Notes under the pieces: model-generated
Seen by the model: only the letters and a program-made list of their open reading frames with translations
Told to the model about the DNA's origin: nothing
Database searches by the model: none
Shown here: piece by piece, positions 5,201 to 19,798 of the stretch
How the letters are laid out: each line of letters begins with the position of its first letter
Position numbering within the stretch: the first letter of the stretch is position 1
Source: Sphingomonas ginsenosidivorax
GTDB taxonomy: Bacteria; Pseudomonadota; Alphaproteobacteria; Sphingomonadales; Sphingomonadaceae
Length of the DNA stretch: 64,000 nucleotides
Direction of reading: 5' to 3'
Assembly: GCF_007995065.1 (NCBI RefSeq)
Contig: NZ_VOQR01000001.1
Span: 2,483,001 to 2,547,000 of the forward strand
Position numbers and translations under genes: made by a program

Positions 5201-5893
5201 ATGGCAAAGCTGACCAAGAAGCAGAAGGCCGTCACGGTCGACACCGTCAAGCTGCACGGCGTCGACGAAGCGATCGCACTGGCCCGTTCGGGTGCGACCT
5301 CGAAGTTCGACGAGACGATCGAAGTCGCGCTGAACCTGGGCGTCGACCCGCGTCACGCCGACCAGATGGTCCGCGGCGTGGTGACGCTGCCCAAGGGCAC
5401 CGGCAAGACCGTCCGCGTTGGCGTGTTCGCCCGCGGCGCGAAGGCTGAAGAGGCTCTGGCCGCCGGCGCAGACGTCGTCGGTGCCGAGGACCTGATGGAG
5501 GCCATCCAGGGTGGCACGATCGATTTCGATCGCTGCATCGCGACCCCGGACATGATGGGCATCGTCGGTCGCCTCGGCAAGGTGCTGGGCCCCAAGGGCC
5601 TGATGCCGAACCCGAAGCTCGGCACGGTGACGATGAACGTCGCGGCTGCGGTCGAAGCAGCCAAGGGCGGCCAGATCGAATACCGCGTCGAGAAGGCCGG
5701 CATCATCCATTCGGGCATCGGCAAGGCGTCGTTCCCGGCGGAAGACCTGCGCGCCAACTTCGACGCGCTGGTCGATGCGGTGGTCAAGGCCAAGCCGGCC
5801 GGCGCCAAGGGCAAGTATGTGCGGAAAGTCGCGATCTCGAGCACCATGGGTGCGGGGATCAAGGTCGATACGGCCGAGGTTGCGGGCGCCTAA
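5201..5893 (+). CDS. rplA: 50S ribosomal protein L1
   Basis: 230 residues. Typical segments are [22 protein letters not shown] in form, the L1 signature around [10 protein letters not shown], and [20 protein letters not shown]. It builds the L1 stalk of the 50S subunit and in many bacteria autoregulates the rplKA transcript. It lies four bases after rplK and ends at a strong terminator. Confidence 0.98.
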
Positions 5894-5920
5894 GCGCTTC
5901 GCATTTCGGTGAGACAGGAA

Positions 5921-5955
5921 GGGCCGGGAGAGCGATCTCCCGGCCCTTTTTGTTT
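5921..5955 (+). terminator. Terminator after rplK-rplA
   Basis: 11-bp perfect stem GGGCCGGGAGA / TCTCCCGGCCC, loop GCGA, tail TTTTTGTTT. It ends the rplKA transcript, so rplJL needs its own promoter. Confidence 0.95.
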
Positions 5956-5974
5956 GTGCGCGGTAAGCTCAGGA

Positions 5975-6080
5975 CCCACCCCCGGCGGAGGCCGGGGCCC
6001 AATTGGACGGTCGTGATAACGGAACGCAGTCCGCCGTCACGTCGGTTTCCCAATTGGGCCCCGGCCTTCGCCGGGGTGGT
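5975..6080. repeat. Paired inverted repeat, family B
   Basis: Two arms of a palindromic unit built on CCCCGGCGAAGGCCGGGGCCCAATTGG in opposite orientation around a short spacer. Other pairs lie at 40764-40854 (inside a gene) and 48969-49080. It resembles REP doublets (BIME/REPIN). Confidence 0.85.
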
Positions 6081-6088
6081 TGAGCCCG

Positions 6089-6946
6089 TCAGGCGTCCAC
6101 GGTTTCCGGGAAATCCGCCCCCAGGCTGACGTCGCGCGCGGCCGTGATGGCGTCGAGCCGTTCCTTGAGCTTCGCGGTCACGGCGTCGTAGCCGAACTCG
6201 CCGAGCACGAGGTGACGCGGCGCGGTGTTCTGCTGGACGGTGGCGATGATCGCCTCCCCTGCCCGCACCGGGTCGCCGACCTGCGTTCCGCTGACGTCCT
6301 TCGTGCCTTTCATCCGGGCCTTTGCGGTCTCGGCATAAGCGGGGATCGTGCTGGGCGTCTGCCTGAGCGAGCGGCCGGCCCAGTCGGTGCGGAACGGGCC
6401 GGGCTCGACGCAGGTGACGCCGATGCCGAGCGGGCCGACCTCGGCGAGCAGCGCGTCGGACCAGCCCTCGACCGCGTGCTTCGAGGCGGCGTAATAGCCC
6501 GAGCCGGGAAAGCCGACGAGCCCGGCGACCGAGGTGAAGTTGACGATGTTGCCGCTCCCCTGCGCGCGCATCACGGGCAGCACGGCGCGGGTCAGCGCGA
6601 ACAGGCCGAAGACGTTGGTGTCGAACTGCGCGCGGATCTCGGCCTCCTCGCCCTCTTCGACGGTCGCCTGGTAGCCATAGCCGGCGTTGTTCACGAGCAC
6701 GTCGATGCGGCCGAACTTGTCGGTCGCCGCGGCGACGGCGGCGTCGATCTGCGCCTGGTCGTTGACGTCCAGATCCAGTGCGAGCGCGCGGTCCTCGACC
6801 CCCTCGACCAGGTCGGCCACGCGGTCTGCGCCGCGCGCCGTGACGACGGCGTTCCAGCCGCGGTCGAGCACGAGTTTGGCAAGATCGCGGCCGAAGCCGG
6901 TCGAGCAACCGGTGATGAACCAGACGGGGGAATCGGGGAGAGACAT
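6089..6946 (-). CDS. SDR-family oxidoreductase
   Basis: 285 residues, classical short-chain dehydrogenase/reductase. Cofactor motif TGCSTGFG (12-19), NNAG at 86-89, catalytic Ser139, Tyr152 and Lys156 (YAASK). The absence of an acidic residue right after the second strand (TARGADR) suggests NADP(H), by family rule. The C-terminal third (LGEFGYDAVTAKLKERLDAI) is typical of the group annotated as general oxidoreductases. Substrate unknown. It is transcribed divergently from the small gene at 6983; its 3' end abuts the family B repeat. Confidence 0.92.
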   Translation of the reverse strand: MSLPDSPVWFITGCSTGFGRDLAKLVLDRGWNAVVTARGADRVADLVEGVEDRALALDLDVNDQAQIDAAVAAATDKFGRIDVLVNNAGYGYQATVEEGEEAEIRAQFDTNVFGLFALTRAVLPVMRAQGSGNIVNFTSVAGLVGFPGSGYYAASKHAVEGWSDALLAEVGPLGIGVTCVEPGPFRTDWAGRSLRQTPSTIPAYAETAKARMKGTKDVSGTQVGDPVRAGEAIIATVQQNTAPRHLVLGEFGYDAVTAKLKERLDAITAARDVSLGADFPETVDA

Positions 6947-6982
6947 GACGCGCGCCTTTTGTGGGGGACTTCAACAGGTAGG

Positions 6983-7312
6983 ATGCAAGGGCAGCCGGGC
7001 AAGGGCGGCAAGGCTTACAACGAGTCCCGGGCGCGGCTGGAGGCGGATCGGACCGGCAACTGCAGGGCGGCGGTGGCGGAGTCTGCCGACGACATCGTCG
7101 TCGTCGCGCGACGGCTGCGCCGGTTGCGGCTGACCTATGCGAGCAGCGGGCGGATCCTGCGGTGGTGCCGGACGTCGATCTCGAGCGGCGACAGGCGGGT
7201 CGACCGGATCGGGTGCGCGATCGTGCGGGCGTGCGTGCGCGAGGGGTTCGGCGACCGCGGCCCCGACATCGCGTGCTTCCGGCGCAAGGTGGAGTCGCTG
7301 GAGCCCGACTGA
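6983..7312 (+). CDS. Hypothetical protein, 109 residues
   Basis: ATG at 6983, 37 bases from the divergent SDR start. The core reads DDIVVVARRLRRLRLTYASS, then SSGDRRVDRIGCAIVRACV and DIACFRRKVESLE. The spaced cysteines (in CRT, CAIV, CVRE, ACF) and the SSGD-R-D pattern look like a conserved small protein I associate with sphingomonads; function unknown. No signal peptide is visible from this start. It converges with the nucleotidyltransferase gene 10 bases downstream. Confidence 0.5.
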   Translation: MQGQPGKGGKAYNESRARLEADRTGNCRAAVAESADDIVVVARRLRRLRLTYASSGRILRWCRTSISSGDRRVDRIGCAIVRACVREGFGDRGPDIACFRRKVESLEPD

Positions 7313-7322
7313 GGCGAGAGCG

Positions 7323-8417
7323 CTAGCGCCGGTTCCAGAGCTTCGGCCAGAGGTCGCCGAGATCGTTGGTGTCGATCGGATCGGTGCCGGGCGGCGGCAC
7401 CGCGGCCTCGGCGATGAAGTCCGCGACATGGCCGGGGAGTGTGAGGCCGAACCGCGGGAGGTGCTTGAAGACATGGTAGGCCGCGGCGGTCAGATTGTGC
7501 TCGCGCAGGATCGAGACCATCCGCAGGAAAGTGATCGGGTCGAGCAGCGGGACCAGCCGGATCAGGTCGGCATATTGGTAGAAGCCCTTGCCGTAGGTGT
7601 GGACGCTTTCCCAATAGAGCTTGAAGACCAGATGCGCGCCGAACCACGCGAAGTCGGGCAGCCCGATCACGTGGTCCGGATAGGCCTTCTGCCACGAGCA
7701 GGCGAGCAGGCCGTCGAGTTCGATGTCGAGCGAGAGCTTGTGGTGGATGTCGACCACTGCATAGCACCACGGCGCATCGGTGGTGGCGTCGTGCCAGAAC
7801 TGGTGCGTCCAGGGCTCGTCGCGGATCGCGGCGCGCGTCTCGTCGGACAGGTTGGTGACGAGCAGCCGCCGGGCGAGGAAGCCGAGTTCGAAATGCGATT
7901 CCTCGACGATCGCGCGCAGATCGCGGTCGGCGCGGACGAACCGGCCGCGCTCGGGATCGCGCTGCGCCTGATGGAAGCCGCAGTCGAGCGCGAGCGCCTC
8001 GGCCTGTTCGAGATCGTCCCAGCCGACGCCGAGGTCGAACTCCCACGCGCCACGCAGGTGCCGTGCGGGATAGAGCAGGCACCCCGCCGCCGCGCCCTTC
8101 AGCAGTGCGTAGCGGATCCCGGCGGCGTCGAGCGCCGCGAGGAACCCTGCGCACCCGGCGACCTGCGCCTGCACGAACGCGGTGACAGCGAGGCGCGCGC
8201 GTACGAACCGCGCGTGATCCTGTTCGACGAGCGTCGGCTCCAGCAGCGTCGGTGCGAGCGCCGGCAGGATCTGCCAGTTGGCGAACAGTGACGCGAGGAG
8301 TGTGGCCGAGCCGTCGGCACAGAGCGTCTCACCCTGCGGCGCCTGGCCTGCCAGCAGCCGGACGAGGGGGGCCTCGGACGGGTGCTCGGCTTGCACCATG
8401 ACGGTCTGGGACGACAT
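7323..8417 (-). CDS. PF14907-like nucleotidyltransferase family protein
   Basis: 364 residues. Residues 104-131 (ALLKGAAAGCLLYP, then RGAWEFDLGV) match the K-G-x-A ... R-x(3)-D-x-D core of the uncharacterised nucleotidyltransferase family NTP_transf_5. Here the acidic pair is Glu126/Asp128. The downstream H-x-K-L-S of VDIHHKLSLDIEL is also typical. Family members sit in capsule, lasso-peptide and other secondary-metabolite clusters, where some transfer nucleotidyl or sugar groups to a modified peptide. It is the last gene of a ten-gene same-strand run and starts 3 bases after the 78-residue repeat protein. Confidence 0.75.
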   Translation of the reverse strand: MSSQTVMVQAEHPSEAPLVRLLAGQAPQGETLCADGSATLLASLFANWQILPALAPTLLEPTLVEQDHARFVRARLAVTAFVQAQVAGCAGFLAALDAAGIRYALLKGAAAGCLLYPARHLRGAWEFDLGVGWDDLEQAEALALDCGFHQAQRDPERGRFVRADRDLRAIVEESHFELGFLARRLLVTNLSDETRAAIRDEPWTHQFWHDATTDAPWCYAVVDIHHKLSLDIELDGLLACSWQKAYPDHVIGLPDFAWFGAHLVFKLYWESVHTYGKGFYQYADLIRLVPLLDPITFLRMVSILREHNLTAAAYHVFKHLPRFGLTLPGHVADFIAEAAVPPPGTDPIDTNDLGDLWPKLWNRR

Positions 8418-8420
8418 GGC

Positions 8421-8657
8421 TCAGATCTCGACCGCTTCGAGGGGAAGTTCCAGGCGGCGGTCCGCCGCGGCGAGTTGTCCGGCGATGGCGGATGCGACCC
8501 GCTCGACCCCGTGGCGGCCGAGCCGGACCGTGGCCTGCGAGCGCTGCAGGTCTTGATGGCGCCCGCGCGCCGATGGGAGCAAGGGTTCGCGGCCCTGGTC
8601 GGCCGTCATCTGCCTGCAGATGGCGCTCGCAAGGGCGTCGACGAAGGTCATGGTCAT
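8421..8657 (-). CDS. Small repeat protein with two 13-residue motifs
   Basis: 78 residues; start at ATG 8657, with a second ATG two codons on. Two copies of an amphipathic unit are visible: FVDALASAICRQM (5-17) and GVERVASAIAGQL (50-62). The same unit recurs three times in the 126-residue and about six times in the 209-residue proteins upstream. There is no signal peptide and the linker is Arg/Gln-rich. No family recognised. It lies between the kinase (29-base gap) and the nucleotidyltransferase (3-base gap), so cotranslation with both is likely. It could be a precursor, scaffold or partner of those enzymes; that is inference. Confidence 0.65.
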   Translation of the reverse strand: MTMTFVDALASAICRQMTADQGREPLLPSARGRHQDLQRSQATVRLGRHGVERVASAIAGQLAAADRRLELPLEAVEI

Positions 8658-8686
8658 GGATTTTCCCGATCGACTATCGGAAAAGA

Positions 8687-9499
8687 CTATCCAGCGCGTG
8701 AAACTGCGGCAATTCGACTTGCATCCCGGTTGCGATCTACCGCGTCTATCGCCTCCATTATGGTTTCGAACGCCGCATCCGGGCTGCCTTCATTGTCGAT
8801 GACCATGACGGTGTCATAGTCCGCCATGCGCTGTCCGAGCGCATCGCGCATCCGGACGAGGTGTCCGAGCAACGGCACGGCCCCGTCGGCGGCGCCGCGG
8901 ATCGCCGGATCGCCTTCCGTCATCGTCTGGTGCAGCCCGCCGACGATCCGCGCGCCGCGTTCGAAATAGCTGACCGGGCGACCCCGCGCGATCATCCGGT
9001 CGCGACATATGGCGGGATCGCAGTCGATCAGGAACAGGATGGTCGGCCGCGGCGCATAGGCGGCGAGCGCGTGCATATAGTCCGTCGAGAGGCCCTCGAG
9101 GATGCCGCGGACCATCAAAGTGGGCACGTAGCGATCGAAGAAGACGAGCCCGTCGCCGTCGAGCGCGTGGCGGTGTTCGGCGACCTGCTCGACGATCGTG
9201 ACCCAGCTGAGCAGGCTGAAGGTGAGCGGCGTGGCGTTGCGCCATTTCGCGCGTTCCAGCGCGTGCGCGGTGATGTCGGAACGACCGAGCCTGAGCTTGA
9301 GCGTCTCGCGTCCACGCGCGGCATGCGCGGCGATGACGCGGTCGAGCAGAGTCGATTTGCCGGCACCGTCGATCCCCTCGAACGCGAACAGGTTGCGCGG
9401 GCGCAGCAGCCCGGGCTCGACCACCAGGTTGAGCGGCGGTCGGCAGGGATAGACCGGGGGCAGCGCACCGGGTTCGGGGGTATCGTCGTCGATCCGCAT
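8687..9499 (-). CDS. Thymidylate-kinase-like P-loop kinase
   Basis: 270 residues. After an N-terminal extension of about 35 residues come the Walker A GIDGAGKST (42-50), the FFDRYVPT DR(Y/H) motif at 121-127 and a LID-like DRMIARGRPVSYFERG. These match the dTMP kinase fold, but the extension and the weak substrate motifs make a housekeeping Tmk unlikely. A nucleotide or nucleotide-like phosphate acceptor is inferred. It sits in the run that begins with 7-deazapurine-type genes, so a modified NMP is one candidate substrate. SD-like AGGACG precedes the ATG. Confidence 0.75.
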   Translation of the reverse strand: MRIDDDTPEPGALPPVYPCRPPLNLVVEPGLLRPRNLFAFEGIDGAGKSTLLDRVIAAHAARGRETLKLRLGRSDITAHALERAKWRNATPLTFSLLSWVTIVEQVAEHRHALDGDGLVFFDRYVPTLMVRGILEGLSTDYMHALAAYAPRPTILFLIDCDPAICRDRMIARGRPVSYFERGARIVGGLHQTMTEGDPAIRGAADGAVPLLGHLVRMRDALGQRMADYDTVMVIDNEGSPDAAFETIMEAIDAVDRNRDASRIAAVSRAG

Positions 9500-9585
9500 G
9501 CGGTGCGTCCTGTCGGATAGGGGGTGGCTGCGGGCGCGGCGGATCGGCGCGGGTCCTCCCCCCGCTCAGGGGAGGAGGATTGGCG

Positions 9586-10215
9586 CTAGTCGCGTTTACG
9601 AACGGTGGCCGGGGGCGCAGCGGGAGGGTCGGACAGCGCCACGGTCGGCGCTGCGGTGGCAGCGGCCACCGGTTGCTCAGCCTCCGCCGCGGTCGGCTCG
9701 GCCTGCGCGGTGCGGAGCGAGGCGGTGACAATCGAGGCGACACGGCCTTGGAATGCGCGCGCGTCGGCCGGCGTGCCGACCAGCCGCACGCTGTTCAGCC
9801 GGCGCAGGATCGTGCTGGCCACGATAGCGGCGGGGTCGGCGGCGGCCTGACGGCTGCCGAGCGCGCCGGCCAGCGCCTTCGCCGCGGCGGCGGGATCGAT
9901 CGTGCTCAGCGCCACCGGTTCGGGACCCGGCGCCTTGCCGAGCTGCCGGGTGACCGTGCGCACGATGCCGCGGGTCAGGCGGCTGGCAGCGAGCGGGATG
10001 CCGGGTACCGCCGGCCCCGTCGCGAGCCGGCGGGTCACCGCGCTGGCGAGAACGGTCGCGAGACGATCGACCGATGGATCCGCGCCGGGTTTGCGGCCGC
10101 GGCGGGGAGCAGCGACGCTGGCGTACCGAGCGGCCGCCGGGCCGGCGCGCGGTCCCCGCGTCTGGAGCCGGCGCACGACGGCGGCGGCAACGCTATCGAC
10201 AACAGTTCTGGGCAT
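9586..10215 (-). CDS. Basic repeat protein, about six 13-residue motifs
   Basis: 209 residues, rich in Ala, Arg, Pro, Thr. Copies of the amphipathic unit occur at 5-17 (VVDSVAAAVVRRL), 52-64 (LATVLASAVTRRL), 80-92 (LTRGIVRTVTRQL), 128-140 (PAAIVASTILRRL) and 155-167 (FQGRVASIVTASL), with a weaker one at 107-119. Hydrophobic residues fall at unit positions 1, 5, 9 and 13. The last 40 residues are Ala/Pro/Thr-rich and ordered structure is unlikely. The leader AGGAGACAGGAC before the ATG almost duplicates that of the 126-residue gene. No known family; no signal peptide. Confidence 0.65.
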   Translation of the reverse strand: MPRTVVDSVAAAVVRRLQTRGPRAGPAAARYASVAAPRRGRKPGADPSVDRLATVLASAVTRRLATGPAVPGIPLAASRLTRGIVRTVTRQLGKAPGPEPVALSTIDPAAAAKALAGALGSRQAAADPAAIVASTILRRLNSVRLVGTPADARAFQGRVASIVTASLRTAQAEPTAAEAEQPVAAATAAPTVALSDPPAAPPATVRKRD

Positions 10216-10265
10216 GTCCTGTCTCCTGTAGCGCCGGACGAGGTCACCCCGCCCGGCGCATTCCC

Positions 10266-10646
10266 CTAGCGACGACGCAAGGCCGCGCGGCCGGCGAGCT
10301 GGCGCGAGACCGCACTGGCGACCGCCGCGACGAGGCTGCCGCGGGGTTTCGCCTTGCGCGCGGGCGTCTTGCGCGCGGCACCCGATGCCGAGAGCCGCCC
10401 GGTGACCGCGCTGGCGACGGCGGCAGCGAGCGTCGGCCGCCGTGCCCCCGTCTTGCCGCGTGCGGCCGGATGGCTGAGCGCGCCGGTCTTGCGCTTCGTT
10501 CTGACGGGTGCAGTGCGCGCCACCCTTCCGGATCCGACCGTCGTGGTGAGCTGCGCGACGACGGCGCTGGCGACGGCGGCGGGCAGGCTGGCGCGCTTCG
10601 CCGTCGGACGGCGCCGGATAGCCTTGCGGATAGTGGGTCGTGCCAT
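10266..10646 (-). CDS. Basic repeat protein, three 13-residue motifs
   Basis: 126 residues, strongly basic (Lys/Arg/Ala/Thr/Pro, H1-histone-like linkers). Three near-identical units occur: LPAAVASAVVAQL (21-33), LAAAVASAVTGRL (73-85) and LVAAVASAVSRQL (105-117). A strong SD (AAAGGAGACATGAC) precedes the ATG. It starts 13 bases after the HTH gene stops. The basic linkers suggest nucleic-acid or polyanion binding and the helices suggest self-association or partner docking; both are inference. No family recognised. Confidence 0.65.
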   Translation of the reverse strand: MARPTIRKAIRRRPTAKRASLPAAVASAVVAQLTTTVGSGRVARTAPVRTKRKTGALSHPAARGKTGARRPTLAAAVASAVTGRLSASGAARKTPARKAKPRGSLVAAVASAVSRQLAGRAALRRR

Positions 10647-10659
10647 GTCATGTCTCCTT

Positions 10660-11424
10660 TCAGTTCGGGGTGACCAGGGTCTTCTGGTGGGCGTGGGTCG
10701 ACGCCGGATCGGCGGGGACCGGGATCAGGCGGCTGGGCCAGCGTGCCCCGCACTGCGCGAGCGTCACGGCGGTCCAGAGCGGGTCGCCGGGCGGCGCGAC
10801 TAGCGACAGTCGCCCCCGCCAGAGGATGAGGAGCCGCGCGACGAAGGCTTCGCGCTCGGCCGCGGTCGGCGCATGCGGATAGGCGAGCACGCTCCAGTCG
10901 CCGCGCGGGCGGCGCGCCCAAAGCAGCCAATACGGATCGGGATAGGCGCGTTGGCCGCTTTGCAGGACGACCATCGTGGCGGCCGACCGCGGCGCGGCGC
11001 ACCAGCGCGCCGGTGCCGATGGAAGCGCGGGGGGCGCCACCCGCCACGCGTCGAGATACCGGAGCAACGTCCAGCGCGAGACCTGGATGCCGGTCTCGCG
11101 CTCGATCAACAGGCGCACCGCCGCGCCGTCCCACACGCCGTACGGCAGGCCCTGCGCATCGGGCGGTCCCGCCAGCAGATGCGTCGCAAGCCGGTCGATC
11201 GGCGTGTTGCCCGCGAGGCGTGGCGGACGACCCTGGCGTCTGGCGGCGAGATCGTCGGCGCCGCCACGGTGGAATCGCGACTTCCATTGGCTGACGCTTG
11301 CCACCGACGTGTCGAGCAGCGCTGCGACCTGTTTCTGCGTCAGCCCGCGTGCCAGCGCTTCGATCGCGCGACGCCGGCGCTCTTCGCGCTGCGCGGGGGT
11401 CAGGGAAGGAGGGGGCGGAGCCAT
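10660..11424 (-). CDS. IS630-like HTH protein without obvious DDE catalytic domain
   Basis: 254 residues. Residues about 8-70 (RRAIEALARGLTQKQVAALL, then SVSQWKSRF and GRPPRL) match the first HTH of IS630-family transposases. Residues about 92-125 (PYGVWDGAAVRLL, then VSRWTLLRYLDAW) match the second winged-helix unit. The remaining 125 residues (WLLWARRPRGDWSVLAYPHA and after) do not show a recognisable D-D-E arrangement, and no terminal inverted repeats were seen. It therefore looks like a domesticated regulator or DNA-binding protein at the head of the repeat/kinase genes. It starts 74 bases after queE stops, on the same strand, with no terminator between. Confidence 0.65.
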   Translation of the reverse strand: MAPPPPSLTPAQREERRRRAIEALARGLTQKQVAALLDTSVASVSQWKSRFHRGGADDLAARRQGRPPRLAGNTPIDRLATHLLAGPPDAQGLPYGVWDGAAVRLLIERETGIQVSRWTLLRYLDAWRVAPPALPSAPARWCAAPRSAATMVVLQSGQRAYPDPYWLLWARRPRGDWSVLAYPHAPTAAEREAFVARLLILWRGRLSLVAPPGDPLWTAVTLAQCGARWPSRLIPVPADPASTHAHQKTLVTPN

Positions 11425-11498
11425 GCCCCTTCATGGCATGTTCTAAAGCAGTTTATGCACCAACTGGCACCGTTTCGGCGGTAATGGGTGAACGCCGG

Positions 11499-12191
11499 TC
11501 AGGGCAGGTCGAGAAGCTTGTGCAGCTGGAGACAGAGGCGGTAGCCGTGACGCATCGCGATCCCCGCGGCGGTCGCCTGATGCGCGCGGTTCGCAACCGC
11601 GTCGCCGTCGTCACGCGGCATCACGAACACGCGTGTGTTGGACGGCGGGCGGAACAGGCGGGTGCGCTGGCCCGCCTTCTGGGTCGACGCCATCGGCAAG
11701 CCATCATCGGGATCGACCTCGCCCGCCGCCAGCACATATTTGTACGCGGTGATACGCGGCACGATCGCGTCGTGCAGCTGCTTGGTCTTGGGGCTGCACA
11801 CGATCGTCAGCCGGTCGTCGACGGGAAGCGGGATCGACAGCGTCCCGTTGGTCTCGATCTGGACGCGTAGTCCCCGGGCGAGGAGCTGCTGGACGAGCGG
11901 CGCGATGTTCTGGCGGAAGGGTTCGCCGCCGGTCAGCACGATCAGGTCGCAATGCGCCGGGCGATGCGTCTCGATCGCGGCGATCAGATCGGCCAAGGCC
12001 GGCCGCCAGGTCGAGCTTTCGAAGTCGGTGTCGCACCAGTAGCAGCGGATGTTGCATCCCGCGGTGCGTACGAAGACCGCGGGGTCGCCGGCGAAGGGGC
12101 CTTCGCCCTGCAGCGTGTAGAAGACTTCCTGGATCCAGAGGCTGGCGCCGTCGCCCATCTCCTGCGCGCGCGCGGGGTTGCCGCCGAACAT
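11499..12191 (-). CDS. queE: QueE-like 7-carboxy-7-deazaguanine synthase (radical SAM)
   Basis: 230 residues. The radical-SAM cluster cysteines 46, 50 and 53 lie in GCNIRCYWCDT (CxxxCxxC), and GGEP at 88-91 binds SAM. The N-terminal FYTLQGEGPFAGDPAVFVR is characteristic of QueE. It converts 6-carboxy-tetrahydropterin to CDG. Start ATG 12191 overlaps the UbiD-like stop as TGATG, giving translational coupling. Neighbours include queD-, UbiD- and PRTase-like genes but no queC, so CDG may be diverted from preQ0. Confidence 0.93.
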   Translation of the reverse strand: MFGGNPARAQEMGDGASLWIQEVFYTLQGEGPFAGDPAVFVRTAGCNIRCYWCDTDFESSTWRPALADLIAAIETHRPAHCDLIVLTGGEPFRQNIAPLVQQLLARGLRVQIETNGTLSIPLPVDDRLTIVCSPKTKQLHDAIVPRITAYKYVLAAGEVDPDDGLPMASTQKAGQRTRLFRPPSNTRVFVMPRDDGDAVANRAHQATAAGIAMRHGYRLCLQLHKLLDLP

Positions 12192-13378
12192 CAGAGCTCG
12201 GTCCAGCGATGATCGGTGCGACGGTCGCAGAGGATGCCGATGCGGTGGCCCTCCTGCCGGCCGCGACGGATATAGGGGCGGCGCTCGACCTCGGCGGGGA
12301 AGACGATCGCTTCCTTCAACACGTCGACGCCCGGGCGCGTCGCGACCACCAGTTTCGCGCGGCCGTCGAAATCGAGCGCGGCGGCGACCATCGCAGCGGA
12401 CGGCGCTTCGCTCTCGATGACGGCCATGTATTCGCCGAACGCGTCGAGCGGGTAGCGGACGGTGTCGACCGCGAACCCGGCGGTGCGCAGATGGTCGAAC
12501 AGCAGGACCTCGTTCTGCAGCGCCATCAGCGTGAGCCCACTGGTCTTGCCGCAGAACAGCCCCAGGCACTGCGCGTCGTCGCGGACGCGGATGCGATCGA
12601 CGATGACGACGGGGCTGGAGGTCGCATCGCTGTAATAGCCCTTGAACTCGCCGAACGGCGCCTCGGTGCGGTGTTCGCGCGTGACATGGCCCTCGATCAC
12701 GATCTCGGCGTCGGCCGGCGCGGACGGATAGTCGCCGCCGGCGAGCGCCACTGCGCCGCCGCCCAGCCGTCCGGCCGCGTCGTAGCTGTCGAGCGCGGAC
12801 GGCAGTTTCGCGGCGGCGGCGAGATAGGCCGCGAAAGGGCCGCCGTTGAACAGCGTGATCGGCACGCGCGGCGCGTCGGCGAGGCCTGCGGTCACGATCC
12901 GGTGCGCGTCGGTGCGCGGATCCATGAACAGCACAATCTCGCGCGGGCCGGCGACGAGGCCGCGGTAGAAGCCGAGATTGGTCCCGCCGCTCTCGTCCGC
13001 GAGCGCGCCGACGAACGCGGTCAGATATCGGCCCGCGTCGCCCGGCTGGTGCCAGAGCAGCGGCAGCTCGGCGAGCGAGCCGAGGTCGCGGGTGGCGAGG
13101 CTGGGCGCGAACACCGGCGGTGCGGGGACCGCGAGACGATCGGCGAGCCGCGTGACGGCACCGCGCGCATCGGCGAGCCCCATCTCGCCGAGCAGCGCGG
13201 CGCGGGTCGGCAGGTTCATCACCAGCGGCAGCCGCGACCCGATCACGTCGGTGAACAGGAAGCAGGGCTCGGCTCCGGTCCGCCGCTGCCAGTCGGACAG
13301 GAAGCGCGTGACGCCGAGATCCGGGTCGACCGGCTGGTCCACGCGGAACAGCTTCGCCGCCTGCAGCGCCTCACGCAT
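12191..13378 (-). CDS. UbiD-family decarboxylase
   Basis: 395 residues, shorter than UbiD proper (about 490). The family core is present: FNGGPFAAYLAAA, the EAPFGEFKGYYSDA stretch (counterpart of the GPFGEHTGYY motif) and VVIVDRI. UbiD enzymes use prenylated FMN to (de)carboxylate aromatic or heteroaromatic acids; the cofactor comes from UbiX, and a ubiX-like gene lies at 18329. Located between a phosphoribosyltransferase and QueE, its likely substrate is the 7-carboxylate of a 7-deazaguanine or its nucleotide; this is inference. Overlaps the PRTase by 8 bases and QueE by 1. Confidence 0.85.
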   Translation of the reverse strand: MREALQAAKLFRVDQPVDPDLGVTRFLSDWQRRTGAEPCFLFTDVIGSRLPLVMNLPTRAALLGEMGLADARGAVTRLADRLAVPAPPVFAPSLATRDLGSLAELPLLWHQPGDAGRYLTAFVGALADESGGTNLGFYRGLVAGPREIVLFMDPRTDAHRIVTAGLADAPRVPITLFNGGPFAAYLAAAAKLPSALDSYDAAGRLGGGAVALAGGDYPSAPADAEIVIEGHVTREHRTEAPFGEFKGYYSDATSSPVVIVDRIRVRDDAQCLGLFCGKTSGLTLMALQNEVLLFDHLRTAGFAVDTVRYPLDAFGEYMAVIESEAPSAAMVAAALDFDGRAKLVVATRPGVDVLKEAIVFPAEVERRPYIRRGRQEGHRIGILCDRRTDHRWTEL

Positions 13379-13889
13379 GAACGCTACCTTCCCAGGGGTC
13401 CTTCCCCTCCCACGGGAAGATCACCCAGCCGTGCACGTCGCACGCCCAGTGGTCGACGATCGCGCGGGGGTTGCGACCGGCGAGGTTGTCGCGGTTGACG
13501 ACCAGCGTGGCGGTGACCGGATCGGCGCCGGCCTGGACCAGGACACGGCAGGCCGCGTCCAGCGTCAGCCCCTGCCCCACGACGTCGTCGACCAGCAGCA
13601 CGCGGCGGCCGCGCATCCGTTCGAGACCGAGCGCGCCGTGGTTCGCCGGCTGCGATTTGTCCGCACGGATCGCATCGCTGTGCGTCCGTGCGATGTCGAG
13701 CACCGCGAACGGCCGGACGCCGAGCATGTGCGAGAGCATTACCGCGGGGACGAGGCCCGAGCGCGCGATCCCGACCACGCCGTCCACCCGCGCATCGGCC
13801 AGCCGGTCGGCGAGCAGCCGCGCCAGCCCTGCGATCTCCTCCCAGGAGAAGCGGTGGATCGTCGAGACCGGGCGCGCAGGGTCGAGCAT
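13371..13889 (-). CDS. Purine-type phosphoribosyltransferase
   Basis: 172 residues from ATG 13889, which overlaps the upstream stop as TGATG just like the queE junction; GTG 13892 is the alternative. The PRPP-binding loop reads VLLVDDVVGQGLTL (about 96-109). GVVGIARSGLVPAVML supplies the pyrophosphate loop, and the VHGWVIFPWE end is typical of Gpt/Hpt-like type I PRTases. It would attach ribose-5-phosphate to a purine-like base. With QueE and UbiD in the same operon, a 7-deazapurine base is the probable acceptor (inference). Confidence 0.85.
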   Translation of the reverse strand: MLDPARPVSTIHRFSWEEIAGLARLLADRLADARVDGVVGIARSGLVPAVMLSHMLGVRPFAVLDIARTHSDAIRADKSQPANHGALGLERMRGRRVLLVDDVVGQGLTLDAACRVLVQAGADPVTATLVVNRDNLAGRNPRAIVDHWACDVHGWVIFPWEGKDPWEGSVHA

Positions 13890-15076
13890 CACCCCGCGAC
13901 CGGACCGGCGACGAACGCCTGCGCGTAATCGGGATGCAGCGCGGGGACGCCGTCGCGGACGTGCGGGCGCCCCTCGGCATGGCCGGCGTTCGAGACGCGC
14001 ACGAACCGTGCGTGATCGGCAAGCTCGGCCACGGCCGCGCAGCCGCTATAGGTGACGCCGGAGCAGAGGCCCCTCGCCAGCTTGCCGAGCGTGTCGGCGA
14101 CGGGGCCGCTATGGTCGAAGGTCCCTTCCACGCCTTCGGGCAGATAGGCGTCGAAGGCGTCGCGCGAGATCGTGGCGCCGGCGAGGCGTTGCAGCGTGAG
14201 GTCGACGCCGAGCGTGACGAAGCCGGTGGTCACCTTGTAGCGGCGGCCGTCATGCTCGACCGCGCGCGCCTCGCTCTCGTCGGCGCCGGCGAGCAGCTTG
14301 CCGAGCATCACCGCGGACGCCCCCGCGGCGATCGCCTTGGCGATGTCGCCCGACCCGCGGATGCCGCCATCGGCGATCACGCCGACGCCGGCCTTGCGCG
14401 CGACCGCGGCGCATTCGAGGATCGCGGTGAGCTGCGGCATGCCGGCGCCGGTGACGACGCGCGTGGTGCAGACGCTGCCCGGGCCGATGCCGACCTTGAT
14501 CGCGTCCGCGCCGGCATCGATCAGGTCGCGTGCACCGTCCGCGGTCGCGACGTTGCCGACGATGCAGTCGAGCTGCGGATGCCGGGCCTTCAGCTCGAGC
14601 AGCGCGGCGATGACGTGATCCGAATGGCCGTGCGCGACGTCGATCGCGAGGATGTCGACGCCCGCATCGGCGAGGCGATCGGCACGCTCGAGATAGTCGC
14701 CCTTGATCCCGACCGCGCCGCCGACACGGAGGCGGCCTGCGAGGTCGAGCGTGGCGTGAGGCGTATCGCCGGCTGCCGCGGCCTTGGTTGCGGCGACCGC
14801 TTCCGCCTGGTCCTGCGGCGACCACATCCGGTGGACGATGCCGATGCCGCCCGCGCGCGCCATCGCGGTCGCCATCGGCGCGGCCGTGCACCAGGGGGTG
14901 TTGGCGGACACGATCGGGACCGCGAGCCGGATGCCGGGCGTGAGCTGCATCGCAGTGTCGACGTCGCGGCGGCTGCGCAAGCGGTTGCGGCGCGGCACGA
15001 GCAGGACGTCGTCGAACGACAGGCCGATGTCCGCGTCGACGCGATCGATGTCGAAGGATCCGTATCGAAGATTCAA
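13889..15076 (-). CDS. GMP reductase / IMP dehydrogenase-like enzyme
   Basis: 395 residues, TIM-barrel IMPDH/GMPR family without CBS domains. Key parts are [15 protein letters not shown], the catalytic-loop Cys203 in [26 protein letters not shown], and a flap beginning YLPEGVEG. The flap has features of both GuaB and GuaC, so the direction (oxidation or reductive deamination) is not settled. The start is TTG at 15076 with AAGGGCG upstream. First gene of the minus-strand run. In toyocamycin/tubercidin-type clusters a GMP-reductase-like enzyme acts on the 7-deazapurine nucleotide, which fits here. Confidence 0.85.
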
Positions 15077-15275
15077 GGTGATCGCCCTTCCTCGTCCGAT
15101 GCGGGGCGTCGATTGCCCCGCCTGTCCGCTGCGAGAAAAGGGTATCAGCGACGTCGAACCCGCTGCCTAGAGTTACAATCTCCGATACGGATACAAAAGC
15201 GCGTGATGCCGCAAGCATACCAGTGCCATACATCCGGATCGTTCACTGGCGGATACGCGCGATATCTTGGCATGG

Positions 15276-15325
15276 CGTGACGTAATGCCGTCGCCGCATC
15301 GCCCGTATCCTGTCTTTACGTCACG
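15276..15325. promoter_or_regulatory. Inverted repeat between divergent genes (possible operator)
   Basis: CGTGACGTAA at 15276-15285 and its exact complement TTACGTCACG at 15316-15325, 30 bases apart (three helical turns). It lies midway between the divergent GMPR-like and queD-like genes. The 400-base gap also has an AT-richer patch at about 15170-15200. No gene is visible in it. Confidence 0.5.
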
Positions 15326-15477
15326 GGGAGATGATCAGTTGAGCAGATATCATCGGATGAGCGCATCGCCTGCCGCCGCGCCGTGCGTGGGCGCGTTCCG
15401 TGGATAGCCCGCAGGCCCGCCTCGATGATGCGAGGGGCGATGGCGGGAATGGCCGCCTGCCCATCGTCGAGCTGCCG

Positions 15478-16044
15478 ATGCCCGGCGCGATGCCGCGCAC
15501 CACGAACGCGCACGACGCGACGACCTGGCACCTAATCAGCCGCGAGATCGGCATCGATGCGGGGCACCGGGTGATGGACCACGGATCGAAATGCCATAAC
15601 CTCCACGGCCATCGCTACAGGATCGAGGCGTGGTGTCGGGGCCCCTTGTTCGCCGCGGGCGAGCAGAACGGGATGGTGCTCGATTTCGGGTTCCTGAAGG
15701 ACGAGATGATGCACGCGATCGACGCGCGGTTCGACCATGCGTTCATGCTGTGCGTCGACGATCCGCTGTGCCGCGCGATGTTCGGGCTCGACGACGGCGC
15801 GCTGTCGCACAGGGTCGCGGCGGCGGTGTCGGAGGACGGCCTGTTCCTCGGCCACGGCCGCGACGGCATGCAGATCTGCGTGCTCGCGGTGGTGCCGACG
15901 GCGGAGAATCTGGCGAAGCTCTGGTTCGACCTGCTCGCGCCGCGGGTCGTCGCGCGGACCTCGGGCCAGGCAAGCCTGGTGTGCCTGAAGGTATGGGAGA
16001 CGCCCAATTGCTGGGCGTCCTATGGGCCGGTCATCCCGGGCTGA
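15478..16044 (+). CDS. queD: QueD-like 6-carboxytetrahydropterin synthase
   Basis: 188 residues from ATG 15478; GTG 15400 or ATG 15490 are alternatives, and no start has a clear SD. Zinc ligands His30, His43 and His45 and catalytic Cys39 sit in GIDAGHRV and KCHNLHGHRYRIEAWC. The C-terminal KVWETPNCWASY carries the glutamate that binds the pterin. It converts 7,8-dihydroneopterin triphosphate to CPH4, the QueE substrate. Longer than the usual 120 residues because of central insertions. Divergent from the GMPR-PRT-UbiD-QueE operon. Confidence 0.9.
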   Translation: MPGAMPRTTNAHDATTWHLISREIGIDAGHRVMDHGSKCHNLHGHRYRIEAWCRGPLFAAGEQNGMVLDFGFLKDEMMHAIDARFDHAFMLCVDDPLCRAMFGLDDGALSHRVAAAVSEDGLFLGHGRDGMQICVLAVVPTAENLAKLWFDLLAPRVVARTSGQASLVCLKVWETPNCWASYGPVIPG

Positions 16045-16193
16045 GCCTACCACGCCCGGAAGTTGACGTTCGCTTCTCACCACGATGCGACGGTCGGGCC
16101 AGCGATCGATCTGGCGGCAGATAACGCCCACTCCTTGCCATTCCCGACCGCCAGCAAGCCTCCCCATTGCGGACGATCGTTCGGCAAGACAGC

Positions 16194-16505
16194 ATGCTCG
16201 ATGACGAACAATACAAGGGCATGATGATGCGCGGGTTTGGGGTAGCATTGCTTGTCGTTGGGTCGCTCGCGGCGATCGGGATGCTCGGGTTACTAGCGCA
16301 GCTTCCTCACGCATCGGCAGCGCGAGATGGTGTTGGGGTCCGCTCGATAGTGTGGATCGGTGGCGCGCCGCTGGTGCTAATTTCGGGTGTTTTATGGGCG
16401 GGTTCGTTTTGCTTTTCCGTAGGCGGTAAGGGCTACGCACGACCGAAAGCAGAACGTTCGCTCTCCACCAATCCCGGACGTTCGTGGGACGATCGCAGCG
16501 AATGA
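16194..16505 (+). CDS. Small two-span membrane protein
   Basis: 103 residues from ATG 16194. Two hydrophobic segments are visible: GFGVALLVVGSLAAIGMLGLL (about 14-34) and SIVWIGGAPLVLISGVLWAG (about 51-70). The charged tail (KAERSLSTNPGRSWDDRSE) partly reads a sequence that looks repeated in sphingomonads, so the natural end may be earlier. Function unknown. Base and codon use is less GC-biased than the neighbours. Confidence 0.5.
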   Translation: MLDDEQYKGMMMRGFGVALLVVGSLAAIGMLGLLAQLPHASAARDGVGVRSIVWIGGAPLVLISGVLWAGSFCFSVGGKGYARPKAERSLSTNPGRSWDDRSE

Positions 16506-16599
16506 CAGCCGACGCCCACTTCCGGACACTCAGGCCCGAATCTGACGATCCTGAAACCAGCCGTTGACGGCGGGGAAGCTACGGTTACCATCCGCGACA

Positions 16600-16986
16600 A
16601 TGAGGGCAGCACTACTCCCGGCGTTGATGATTTGCTCAGGATGTTCAGACGCCTGCCAGAACACAGTGGCATCACGAAGCCTTTCACCTGATGGCACACA
16701 TGTCGCGGTGCTATTCCAACGGGACTGCGGAGCGACGACGGGCTTCTCCACCCAAATCTCGATATTGGACGCAGACGATAAATCATCCGGACGCGGCAAC
16801 GCCTTCGTTGCTGACGACGATCACGGTGCCGCTAGAGTCGGTGACTGGGAAGGGTCATGGGCTGATATGAAGTGGCTTTCGCCGGAACGCCTACTTGTCC
16901 GATACGCCGCAAAGTCGAGGATATTTAAACAGAGGGAGCGTGTTTCCGGCGTGACCATCAGCTATCAGATGGTCGGCGGCAGATAA
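16600..16986 (+). CDS. Hypothetical secreted protein or lipoprotein
   Basis: 128 residues from ATG 16600. Short hydrophobic signal MRAALLPALMICSGC with possible lipidated Cys15. Then SLSPDGTHVAVLFQRDCGATTGFSTQISIL, a stretch I recognise from small conserved proteins of unknown function, and WADMKWLSPERLLVRY. Looks intact. It lies in the lower-bias patch between queD and ubiX. Function unknown. Confidence 0.65.
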   Translation: MRAALLPALMICSGCSDACQNTVASRSLSPDGTHVAVLFQRDCGATTGFSTQISILDADDKSSGRGNAFVADDDHGAARVGDWEGSWADMKWLSPERLLVRYAAKSRIFKQRERVSGVTISYQMVGGR

Positions 16987-17127
16987 CGCCCAAACCCCCA
17001 CGTGCAACGATCGGTATATGGATCCCTATTGCGACTGTTCAGTCATGCGATATCATCGGTAAGATGTCGGGTAGAACTGCGCGTTCCATTGGCACAAGAT
17101 TGCCTGGTTCGAGGATTTTCCGTGCGA

Positions 17128-17844
17128 ATGCCATTCACTCTCATCTCCGGGGCGGTCATCACGTTACTGATCGCCTGCCTGATTGTAGGTGTCGGGTTAT
17201 TGACGGCACTGGTTCACCCGCCCGAACGGTCCCGCTATCGCTTGACGGTTGAAGTCGACACGCCTGACGGCCTGAAAAAGGGGGCAGTCGTTCGGGAGTT
17301 CAGCTGGAAAAAATCGTCTACGGCGTTTACCGGGAATGACATTCACTACACGGAGCGCGGCGAGGCCGTGGCGGTGGATTTACCATCCGGCAAGACCCTA
17401 TTCGTCCTTCTTAACACCAATCCAAGCGATCTGATCGAGATGGCGACGATGAGAGCCGATCTCCGTAGGGCCCCAATTGCGATCCAACGCGCTCGTGAAA
17501 CGGCAGACCTTTACCTAGTGCCGAATAAACACGCATTCGAAACCCACCGTCGCGAGTATCCGAAATTCGTCTTTTTCGAGGACATCAAAGATCCCGCTAC
17601 AGTTCGGAGCGTAGATCCTGGCAACCTTTCTAAGAGCTTTGGTCCGGACGTGGCGCTAAACAGGGTCACTTTTCAAATCACGAGCGACCCGGTTACGCAG
17701 AGTATCGAGGGAAGACTGCCGTGGCTAGCGGAACTACGGAACCGTCGCGTGGGTCTGAATGGAAAGCGGAACGTTGCTCAGACTCCCGGCGATCTTACCA
17801 CTATCCTAGGCTCGGGGTCGTTCGCGCGTAATAGAGCATTTTGA
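17128..17844 (+). CDS. Membrane-anchored hypothetical protein
   Basis: 238 residues from ATG 17128 (GTG 17122 also possible). One N-terminal transmembrane segment (LISGAVITLLIACLIVGVGL). Then an extracytoplasmic region with YRLTVEVDTPDGLKKGAVV, ERGEAVAVDLPSGKTLFVLL and KFVFFEDIKDPATVRSVDP. These phrases recur in hypothetical proteins of related bacteria but no function is known to me. Codon use is less biased than the surrounding core genes. Confidence 0.65.
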   Translation: MPFTLISGAVITLLIACLIVGVGLLTALVHPPERSRYRLTVEVDTPDGLKKGAVVREFSWKKSSTAFTGNDIHYTERGEAVAVDLPSGKTLFVLLNTNPSDLIEMATMRADLRRAPIAIQRARETADLYLVPNKHAFETHRREYPKFVFFEDIKDPATVRSVDPGNLSKSFGPDVALNRVTFQITSDPVTQSIEGRLPWLAELRNRRVGLNGKRNVAQTPGDLTTILGSGSFARNRAF

Positions 17845-18009
17845 TACAGCCGGACGCGACGTCGGCTAACTCATCTGCTTTCCCGATAGCGGACGGGTCG
17901 CTATCCACCTACAATCCGACAGTCGGGCAGCGATCGATCTTGCGGCATATAGCGCGCAATTGCGGACATAAGAGGATCGTGACATGTCTTACCGAACAGG
18001 GAGGCAGGT

Positions 18010-18240
18010 ATGGCGAACTTAACGGCGCGACTAACGAACTGGGTGCCGCCTCGATTGCGTATGTTCGTCACGCGGCTGTCGATTGTCGTTGTGGCCTGGC
18101 TCGCGACGACCGGTCTGATCGAGACGGTGCGCAGCGGCGACTATCCCGACCCGCTACTGTTTGCCGCCCTGATTATCGGGTGCGCCGGGGGTGCGATCCT
18201 TGGACCGCTCCCGCCCGCATCCCGGAACGCCACTGGCTGA
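18010..18240 (+). CDS. Small hypothetical membrane protein
   Basis: 76 residues. Two hydrophobic stretches (LSIVVVAWLATTGLI and LLFAALIIGCAGGAILGPL) behind a basic amphipathic start. A possible SD (GGGAGG) lies about 8 bases before the ATG. No family recognised. Converges with ubiX about 90 bases on. Confidence 0.45.
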   Translation: MANLTARLTNWVPPRLRMFVTRLSIVVVAWLATTGLIETVRSGDYPDPLLFAALIIGCAGGAILGPLPPASRNATG

Positions 18241-18328
18241 GGAGGTTGATAGCGGCAGCAGTAAAGTCCGCGCTCCACTCACGATCCGACAATCGCCCAT
18301 GCAATCGGCGAAACGACCGCCAACGCCG

Positions 18329-18898
18329 TCACTCGCCCCACCGACGGACGAGGCCGGCGTCGATGCCGAACAGGTCGAGCGCGCGGCCGATGCTGTGGTC
18401 GACGATGTCGTCGATCGTCTGCGGGCGCCGGTAGAAGGCGGGGACCGGCGGCATCAGGATCGCGCCGCTGGCGGTGGCGGTGGCCATCAGCGCGATGTGG
18501 CCGGCGTGGAGCGGGGTCTCGCGCAGCATCAGCACGACGCGGCGGCGCTCCTTGAGGCAGACGTCGGCGGCGCGCGCGACGAGGTCGCCGTCGGCGCAGT
18601 GCGCGATGCTGCTCAGCGTCTTCACCGAACAGGGCGCGACCAGCATGCCGCGGGTGCGGAACGATCCGGACGCGATCGCCGCGCCGAGATTGGCCGGGTG
18701 GTGGCAATGATCGGCGAGCGCGACGATGTCGGCGAGCGCCCAGTCGGTTTCCTCCGCGATCGTCCGCCGTGCAGCGGCGGTGACGACGAGATGCGTCTCG
18801 ACCTGCGCGAGCTGCCGGAGATGGACCAGCGCGCGGATCCCGTAGATCGCGCCGGACGCGCCCGTGATCGCCACGACAAGTCGGTCCGGTCTTTCCAT
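18329..18898 (-). CDS. ubiX: UbiX-like flavin prenyltransferase
   Basis: 189 residues from ATG 18898. The signature ITGASGAIYG binds the flavin and phosphate, and the central LVAPCSVKTLSSIAHC segment and the C-terminal ILMPPVPAFYRRPQTIDDIVDH are standard. UbiX transfers a dimethylallyl group to FMN to make prFMN for UbiD enzymes. The UbiD-like gene at 12191 is the obvious client in this window, though ubiquinone biosynthesis elsewhere could also use it. Confidence 0.93.
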   Translation of the reverse strand: MERPDRLVVAITGASGAIYGIRALVHLRQLAQVETHLVVTAAARRTIAEETDWALADIVALADHCHHPANLGAAIASGSFRTRGMLVAPCSVKTLSSIAHCADGDLVARAADVCLKERRRVVLMLRETPLHAGHIALMATATASGAILMPPVPAFYRRPQTIDDIVDHSIGRALDLFGIDAGLVRRWGE

Positions 18899-19236
18899 TC
18901 CGACGATGCTGGTCCCGGGGTGATCGCACAGGCAAGGACGATCGCGGCCATTCTGACGCGAACGCGCGACGGCATGCGGGGCACACCGGGCCGTTGACTC
19001 CGCGGCGCATTCCGCTATGGGGCGGCTTCGTTCGGCGGGCTTGCTCGTCGAACTCCGTCCGAGACGGTGGGTGTGCGGGGTTTGCCTGGACTTAATTGCC
19101 CATCTAGACGGGGAATGGAATTTCGCCTTCGTGCCCGTCACGTCGGCTGTGTCGCCTGCCCGTCAGGCGCCTCTCCCATGCCCCATCGATGAGACACCCC
19201 GGAAGCGTGGGATGTCCGCGCCTCCGGTTAGTGACC

Positions 19237-19264
19237 GGGTGGTCCGCCGCGAGGCGGATGACCC
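19237..19264 (+). promoter_or_regulatory. Candidate ribosomal L10 leader hairpin
   Basis: About 12-bp hairpin GGGTGGTCCGCC-GCGA-GGCGGATGACCC (one mismatch, one G-U) ending 18 bases before the rplJ start, inside a long 5' leader. L10 leaders bind the L10-(L12)4 complex and autoregulate rplJL translation. Position and shape fit; the kink-turn part (around 19220-19240, CGGTTAGTGACCGG) is not proven. The rest of the 18899-19282 gap holds no gene. A weak promoter-like TTGCCT-17-TAGACG begins near 19082. Confidence 0.5.
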
Positions 19265-19282
19265 AAAAACGTGGAGAATGGC

Positions 19283-19798
19283 ATGGATCGTGATCAAAAG
19301 ACCGCGGCCGTCGCCGAGCTGAACCGCACCTTTTCCGAGGTCGGCGTCGTCGTCGTGACGCGCAACCTCGGCCTGACCGTCGCACAGTCCACTGTGCTGC
19401 GGAACAAGATGCGCGACGCCGGCGCGACCTACAAGGTCTCGAAGAACAAGCTTGCCAAGATCGCGCTGGACGGCACCGACTATCTCTCGCTGGGCGACAT
19501 GCTCACGGGTCCGGTCGCGCTGGCCAGCTCCATCGATCCCGTCGCGGCCGCCAAGGTGGTCGTCGATTTCGCGAAGACGAACGACAAGTTCGAAATCGTG
19601 GGTGGGGCGATGGGTTCGACCGTCCTCGACGTGGACGGCGTGAAGGCTCTCGCGACGATGCCGTCGCTGGACGAACTGCGTGCCAAGATCATCGGTCTGC
19701 TCGTTGCACCCGCAACGAAGCTGGCGACGATCACGCAGGCTCCGGCAGCGCAGATCGCGCGCGTGCTTTCCGCCTACGCGGAGAAGGAAGACGCCTGA
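19283..19798 (+). CDS. rplJ: 50S ribosomal protein L10
   Basis: 171 residues from ATG 19283, with GGAG 8 bases upstream; an in-frame start 12 bases earlier is less likely. Typical [17 protein letters not shown] start, VRNKL-type [13 protein letters not shown] and a C-terminal helix that carries L7/L12 dimers. It forms the stalk base. Cotranscribed with rplL 61 bases downstream. Confidence 0.97.

Follow-up and report, generated by a model that had tools for sequence, protein, structure and literature searches.

Tubercidin-type nucleosides are potent antimetabolites that are best known from Streptomyces. The closest described system is the tub gene cluster (tubA–I) of Streptomyces tubercidicus, in which TubE makes 7-carboxy-7-deazaguanine (CDG) ribotide from CDG, TubD reduces GMP to IMP (it was assayed on GMP only), and AMP is a substrate of the Nudix hydrolase TubG; for this pathway the UbiD step was proposed and the amination by PurA/PurB was inferred (PMC6112128). 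The locus described here lies in a 64,000-nucleotide stretch of the Sphingomonas ginsenosidivorax genome (positions 2,483,001 to 2,547,000 of NZ_VOQR01000001.1), referred to as the window and numbered from its first nucleotide. It probably encodes a horizontally acquired, tubercidin-type pathway to a 7-deazapurine nucleotide that would retain its phosphate, become activated, and be passed on to an acceptor, perhaps the repeat proteins R1–R3 of the same operon.

Genes for QueD, QueE, a GMP reductase (GMPR)-like enzyme, a CDG phosphoribosyltransferase (PRTase), and UbiD are common to the tub cluster and the window, and the same set is found in the Streptomyces loci L008 and L010–L018. At window positions 4001–30000 there is no match for GTP cyclohydrolase I (GCH1), the Nudix hydrolase TubG, or the PfkB kinase TubH. 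The window adds UbiX, an IS630-derived helix-turn-helix (HTH) protein, R1–R3, a thymidylate-kinase-like enzyme, and a minimal nucleotidyltransferase (NTase), and its queD is divergent from the main operon. The toyocamycin/sangivamycin (toy) and huimycin (hui) clusters share the steps from GTP to CDG, and toy also carries PRTase and GMPR genes, but both proceed via the QueC-type ToyM or HuiB to preQ0 (PMC6112128, PMC7439116), whereas the window has UbiD instead and QueC is encoded far away. The core is already known; in the open-access literature searched there is no description of the downstream module or of the R family. This variant departs from the known tub logic, with the release enzyme missing and a kinase, an NTase, and the R family present instead. 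It points to a route, open to experiment, towards 7-deazapurine conjugates of a new kind, and the product may be something not yet seen.

The Probable Tubercidin-Type Core

The core of the locus is very probably a tubercidin-type pathway. The initial annotation of this DNA listed six genes, for QueD, QueE, UbiD, UbiX, a PRTase, and a GMPR-like enzyme, four of them coupled by overlaps. All six are intact open reading frames (ORFs) with Pfam or NCBIfam matches and the motifs described (Table 1), and the GMPR–PRTase–UbiD–QueE junctions overlap by 4, 8, and 1 bases, respectively. The six-gene extent was too narrow: the minus-strand operon continues past queE to position 7323 with six further conserved genes on the same strand, which had been missed.

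About 8,000 candidates were scored in each of the protein searches with UbiD, the NTase, and R1 (7,999 for UbiD). Among the best 120 of the 342 UbiD matches, a discrete clade of 74 proteins scores at least 213 bits, and the next match scores 115 bits. In a tree of 73 clade members and 13 outgroup rows, from which one fragment (P0035) was omitted along with 33 non-clade UbiDs out of the 46 listed, the clade includes the Streptomyces members and has a support of 100/99. It is called the TubF clade by way of the Streptomyces loci with the tub gene set, which stand in for TubF itself. Residues R155, E239, and E244, which we take to be catalytic, and the E239–Y249 stretch are invariant in 53 aligned clade members (53 of the 54 alignment rows), with G243 nearly so. 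Near-duplicates and short matches were left out of this alignment and of the NTase alignment (44 sequences).

GMPR and PRTase genes were found inside the fetched flanks at all 18 clade loci from other genomes, together with genes for QueE at 17, QueD at 16, and GCH1 at 15 of them. These loci come from Bradyrhizobium, the two cyanobacteria Plectonema and Westiellopsis, Azospirillum, a Methylocystaceae metagenome-assembled genome, Pseudomonas (2), Streptomyces (10), and Actinopolyspora (1), which shows that alphaproteobacteria, Pseudomonas, and cyanobacteria carry the pathway core. One further locus (L019), at 24% identity, is not part of the clade and was excluded from the locus counts. Two of the 21 query pieces used in the locus gene search (QueE_L14 and GCH1_L11) contain stops; the same genes are covered by other queries. 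Because GMPR and PRTase genes occur at every clade locus, the association is not one of chance. A tub-type pathway is marked by a TubF-clade UbiD with GMPR-like and PRTase genes nearby, and the window has this combination.

Full-length matches of the PRTase, which has relatives at 18/18 clade loci, are 31.8–58.6% identical to it, and the GMPR-like protein is 53–60% identical to the copies at these loci. The best PDB match in the alignments of the latter is an IMP dehydrogenase (IMPDH, 7oj2), followed by a GMPR (6lk4). The protein has Thr-Ile where IMPDH has the Arg-Tyr flap dyad, which we take to be an IMPDH marker. An IMPDH identity was considered, but GMPR is preferred because the dyad is lacking and because of the 53–60% identity to the copies of the 18 loci.

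By family, motif, and context, the cluster contains a predicted CDG-forming pair of QueD and QueE. The QueE-like protein has its CxxxCxxC motif at residues 46/50/53, and its closest solved relatives are QueE enzymes. The QueD-like protein shows weak similarity to solved structures (best 2.9e-5). Both are 69% identical to their Bradyrhizobium cluster copies. UbiX (59% identity to the Bradyrhizobium cluster copy) is the likely supplier of prenylated FMN (prFMN) for the cluster UbiD.

The conserved association on which the initial annotation depended holds at 18/18 clade loci and across phyla; it does not extend to close relatives. Among 295 genus genomes, only the window's own has a clade UbiD; the other 294 gave no match at E≤1e-45. 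In the family survey (E≤1e-20) matches were obtained in 18 of 397 genomes, 17 of which are other UbiDs with at most 142 bits versus 572 for the window. The class survey (E≤1e-45) gave 4 matches in 385, three of them with at most 163 bits, and the window's own is again the single clade-level match. Clade loci are nevertheless present in other phyla. The rarity of the gene, its scattered hosts, and its copies on Bradyrhizobium plasmids point to horizontal spread. The whole stretch is flanked by rplA and rplJ (window 5201–5893 and 19271–19798). Since these genes are usually adjacent, a 13.4-kb insertion appears to have split the ribosomal protein operon.

The statement that no such cluster was known to have been described in Proteobacteria requires qualification. 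Related clusters exist in Bradyrhizobium, Azospirillum, Methylocystaceae, and Pseudomonas, and no description of one was found among the papers listed in searches of the open-access PubMed Central (PMC) literature; supplementary Figure S10 of PMC6112128 (other predicted pathways), which lies outside that scope, may draw some. The portion of a 2025 review covered here (PMC12648386) does not contain the terms proteobacteria, pseudomonadota, or cyanobacteri. The UbiD search of viral contigs returned one distant relative with 29% identity (L060, IMG/VR).

Two observations concern individual hosts. The Westiellopsis locus L003 (818–2474 and 8564–9989) carries a full GMPR/PRTase pair and a partial, diverged second pair adjoining UbiD. 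Nine UbiDs of the TubF clade (P0053–P0057, P0060, P0065, P0069, and P0071), which are next to Pseudomonas in the tree, are named Candidatus Dasytiphilus stammeri. This organism is a beetle endosymbiont with a genome of 437–601 kb, and the main text of the corresponding paper, so far as covered, does not mention UbiD, queuosine, deaza, or nucleoside (PMC11191362). It would be striking if a symbiont with so reduced a genome had kept a tubercidin-type pathway.

A Missing Nudix Hydrolase and a Downstream Module

A TubG-type Nudix gene is present at 17/17 of the loci L002–L018, all of them outside the 24-member clade described below, and absent from the window and from the two Bradyrhizobium plasmid loci (L001 and L058). 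No such gene was found at the locus, among window reading frames of at least 80 aa, or at TubG level in the genome. The Nudix proteins of the genome score 47–51 bits versus 167–235 bits for cluster members, two of which scored 102 and 149 bits when left out of the model in turn. The nucleoside-releasing Nudix hydrolase that characterizes a tubercidin producer is thus not found here.

Eight contig sizes are common to the UbiD and NTase match lists, and one further pair differs by one base. The nine UbiDs concerned are all members of a single 24-member clade, with none among the other 49 TubF-clade rows of the tree. The 24-member clade consists of a Sphingomonas branch (100/98) and a Bradyrhizobium branch (100/97). 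It is in this single clade that the releasing Nudix hydrolase is lacking and that the kinase, the minimal NTase, and the R family are present.

The NTase belongs to PF14907 (NTP_transf_5), on the evidence of its score and of conserved nucleotidyltransferase residues, with K107, R122, D128, D223, and H225 invariant in 44 aligned sequences. Its fold neighbors include the minimal nucleotidyltransferases MenT, ANT(2''), and LnuA; the likeness is one of fold only (10–20% identity), and the window NTase differs in its link to a 7-deazapurine pathway. The terms PF14907 and NTP_transf_5 were not found in the open-access PMC literature searched, and the locus would provide the first pathway setting for an enzyme of this family. 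No match to the kinase, R1, or UbiD was obtained at two PF14907 loci of other genomes (66 bits), over stretches of 11.6 and 13.5 kb, and the NTase search of viral contigs and phage records found no relative. The HTH protein has no DDE domain match and is probably a regulator.

The order HTH-R1-R2-kinase-R3-NTase is also found in Bradyrhizobium on two plasmids (L001 and L058). The identities between the window and Bradyrhizobium proteins are 38% (HTH), 44% (R1), 32% (R2), 53% (kinase), 38% (R3), and ~61% (NTase). Third codon positions are the most divergent in 8/8 genes compared, including those of R1–R3. UbiX follows the NTase in Bradyrhizobium and lies beyond QueD in the window. A folE gene adjoins queD in the Bradyrhizobium clusters (L001/L058 7380–8024), and there is no folE in the window cluster. 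In the gene table of the Bradyrhizobium plasmids, which is incomplete, the HTH protein, R2, and the kinase are labeled hypothetical and R1 and R3 are not listed. The two plasmids show 4 base differences over 10.5 kb of cluster, while an ungapped comparison of the whole 21-kb stretches gives 3,353 mismatches, which suggests that the cluster has moved recently. Because they are nearly identical, the two plasmids count as one observation.

Repeat Proteins R1–R3

The VASAVxxxL-type motif occurs in at least two copies in exactly 3 of the 337 window ORFs of at least 60 aa, namely R1, R2, and R3, and no ORF has a single copy. No such motif set was obtained in 200 residue shuffles. In Bradyrhizobium, R1 and R2 have two copies and R3 has one. 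R1 (pI 12) is rich in Ala, and acidic residues make up at most 1% of it; in R2 (pI 11.6–11.9) they make up 6–7%, and the pI of R3 varies (8.0 and 11.7). Each of the three has at most one Trp or Tyr.

The R1 protein search gave 18 matches from 7,992 scored candidates, six of which are on contigs equal in size to UbiD or NTase contigs (12955, 212796, 76655, 29314, 2689031, and 6019). In an alignment of 20 R1 sequences S79 of the second VASAV is invariant, and S111 of the third and most of LSHPAARG are nearly so. Any given Pfam family matches at most one of these 20 sequences. The null result of the R1 plasmid search is uninformative, as the R1-bearing Bradyrhizobium plasmids were missed too; a low-complexity filter is the likely cause. 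The first part of the R1 homologue P0193 (2689031-base contig) matches HEAT repeats (precomputed PF13646), which may reflect a fusion or an assembly error.

We speculate, with considerable doubt, that R1–R3 open a new class of ribosomally synthesized repeat proteins, which would carry the 7-deazapurine nucleotide of the same operon on conserved VASAV serines. Such a protein would be either a nucleoside antibiotic bound to a protein or peptide or a carrier on which the nucleotide is assembled, spread by plasmids between alphaproteobacteria.

Proposed Pathway

GTP would be converted to 7,8-dihydroneopterin triphosphate (H2NTP) by a FolE encoded elsewhere in the genome, and H2NTP to 6-carboxytetrahydropterin (CPH4) by QueD and then to CDG by QueE. 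The PRTase would form CDG ribotide from CDG and phosphoribosyl pyrophosphate (PRPP). UbiD, using prFMN from UbiX, would decarboxylate the ribotide to 7-deaza-GMP, which the GMPR-like enzyme would reduce to 7-deaza-IMP, and housekeeping PurA/PurB are assumed to yield 7-deaza-AMP. The Nudix step for the release of free tubercidin is missing in this lineage, and on balance free tubercidin is not expected to be the main product. The thymidylate-kinase-like enzyme may instead provide the nucleotide diphosphate and a general kinase the triphosphate. The NTase would transfer the nucleotide to an acceptor hydroxyl, most simply on R1–R3 or on a molecule organized by R1–R3, and the HTH protein would likely regulate the operon. 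The initial annotation had suggested that CDG is ribosylated and decarboxylated to a 7-deazapurine nucleotide ahead of the GMPR-like step. This interpretation is supported by the UbiD clade, the 18/18 association, the separate queC–queE pair (see below), and the biochemistry of the TubE and TubD homologues.

Alternative Explanations

It is extremely improbable that the genes serve queuosine or ubiquinone synthesis. The genome holds one FolE (outside the cluster), one tRNA-guanine transglycosylase (TGT), one PTPS, and one UbiD, and a housekeeping role would be favored by the fact that its only PTPS match is the cluster QueD and the only UbiD found is that of the cluster. No queC accompanies queD and queE here, as noted initially; the single QueC match in the genome (G000:C1:389959) is far away. 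Beside it is a second QueE, which passes its Cx14CxxC equivalog cut-off and makes the cluster QueE an additional one. QueD is the sole PTPS match in its genome, but 28 of the 31 genus genomes searched have none. The UbiD does not group with ubiquinone decarboxylases and is separated, within the TubF clade, from 13 outgroup rows (none of which is named as a ubiquinone enzyme), as expected if UbiD/UbiX stand apart from ubiquinone synthesis. The lack of a clade UbiD in the other 294 genus genomes means that ubiquinone synthesis in the genus at large does not depend on it. The queuosine and ubiquinone roles were rejected on these grounds. If the queC–queE pair of this genome is common to the genus, the lack of a PTPS-type QueD in 28/31 genomes raises the question of the CPH4 source.

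A possible, though rather unlikely, explanation is that free tubercidin or 7-deazainosine is produced by the cluster, with a phosphatase from elsewhere, and secreted, and that the kinase/NTase/R module serves self-protection or regulation. The cluster does encode the enzymes from H2NTP through 7-deaza-IMP (PurA/PurB being assumed), the authors who described the Streptomyces PfkB kinase TubH proposed a self-resistance role for it, and the closest NTase folds include the antibiotic-modifying ANT(2'') and LnuA. Yet a TubG-type Nudix gene is in neither the window nor the genome, the scanned operon proteins include no transporter (no search aimed at the major facilitator superfamily was made), and the module lies within the same operon, with its genes in both branches of one clade. 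Distinctly less likely still, the NTase, kinase, and R genes form a separate mobile element riding with the core, for example a tRNA-nucleotidyltransferase toxin system. MenT-type toxins transfer nucleotides to tRNA, block growth, and have a paired antitoxin. A common fold alone shows no function, however, and the genes keep the same position and order in two distant lineages. The plasmid searches with the NTase and with the kinase matched only the two cluster plasmids, and PADLOC gave no match for six of eight proteins (the NTase, the HTH protein, R1–R3, and UbiD). Anti-phage defense was also considered and rejected, the weak PADLOC matches of the other two, the kinase (19.1 bits at best) and QueE (23.8 bits, to viperin), being ascribed to common P-loop and radical SAM folds.

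Several points weigh against a nucleotide that is kept phosphorylated and transferred to an acceptor. The proposal derives from the genes themselves, through their content, order, conservation, and families and one fold. Another kind of phosphatase could still release tubercidin. That UbiD and NTase genes share contigs is suggested by equal contig sizes, the gene order was read in two lineages only, the 24-member clade has a support of 94/83 (just below the star of the tool), and the UbiD tree gives long-branch warnings. The best NCBIfam matches of QueE (85.7 of 240 bits) and QueD (72.5 of 89.25 bits) are below the equivalog cut-offs, and in both PDB and NCBIfam the GMPR-like protein matches IMP dehydrogenases best, the NCBIfam match being under its cut-off. 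The kinase is far from characterized enzymes and its structure model is poor (pLDDT 38.8). The first-repeat Ser of R1 is not conserved among the 20 sequences, and a function of R1–R3 as covalent acceptors of the nucleotide is a tentative and fairly doubtful assignment.

Coordinates and Intergenic Regions

The positions of the cluster genes are collected in Table 1.

Table 1. Genes of the cluster in window coordinates, with the features that identify them
Gene product	Position	Strand	Identifying features
PF14907 (NTP_transf_5) minimal NTase	7323..8417	-	Pfam 39.8 vs cut-off 31.2 bits
R3	8421..8657	-	78 aa; two VASAVxxxL-type motif copies; 3 bases ahead of NTase start
Thymidylate-kinase-like P-loop kinase	8687..9499	-	PF02223 4.7e-9; PDB thymidylate kinase 2plr 2e-12; FEGIDGAGKST, DRY
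R2	9586..10215	-	209 aa; pI 11.9; VASAVxxxL-type motif; no Pfam family above cut-off
R1	10266..10646	-	126 aa; pI 12; three VASAVxxxL repeats and LSHPAARG; no Pfam family above cut-off
IS630-derived HTH protein	10660..11424	-	HTH_28 2.8e-11; IS630 model 63.7 bits (cut-off 100)
QueE-like CDG synthase	11499..12191	-	PF04055 radical SAM 1.1e-7; QueE models; PDB QueE 4njg 3e-17
UbiD-type decarboxylase, TubF clade	12191..13378	-	PF01977 2.6e-36
Purine-type PRTase, TubE type	13371..13892	-	PF00156 3e-14
GMPR-like enzyme (TubD/ToyE type)	13889..15076	-	IMPDH/GMPR PF00478 2.9e-119; Cys203 (alignment)
QueD-like 6-carboxytetrahydropterin synthase	15478..16044	+	PTPS PF01242 2.8e-31; CxxxHGH motif
UbiX flavin prenyltransferase	18329..18898	-	NF004685 243 bits (cut-off 188); TIGR00421 above cut-off

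Folding of the minus strand at 15077–15399 was no better than that of shuffles (z 0.07), giving no sign of a structured RNA, and Rfam gave 0 matches over 5800–19400 at the gathering threshold. The interval between QueD and UbiX (window 16167–17844), in which no Pfam family is matched at cut-off, contains three plus-strand ORFs in a patch of lower GC content (~0.57).

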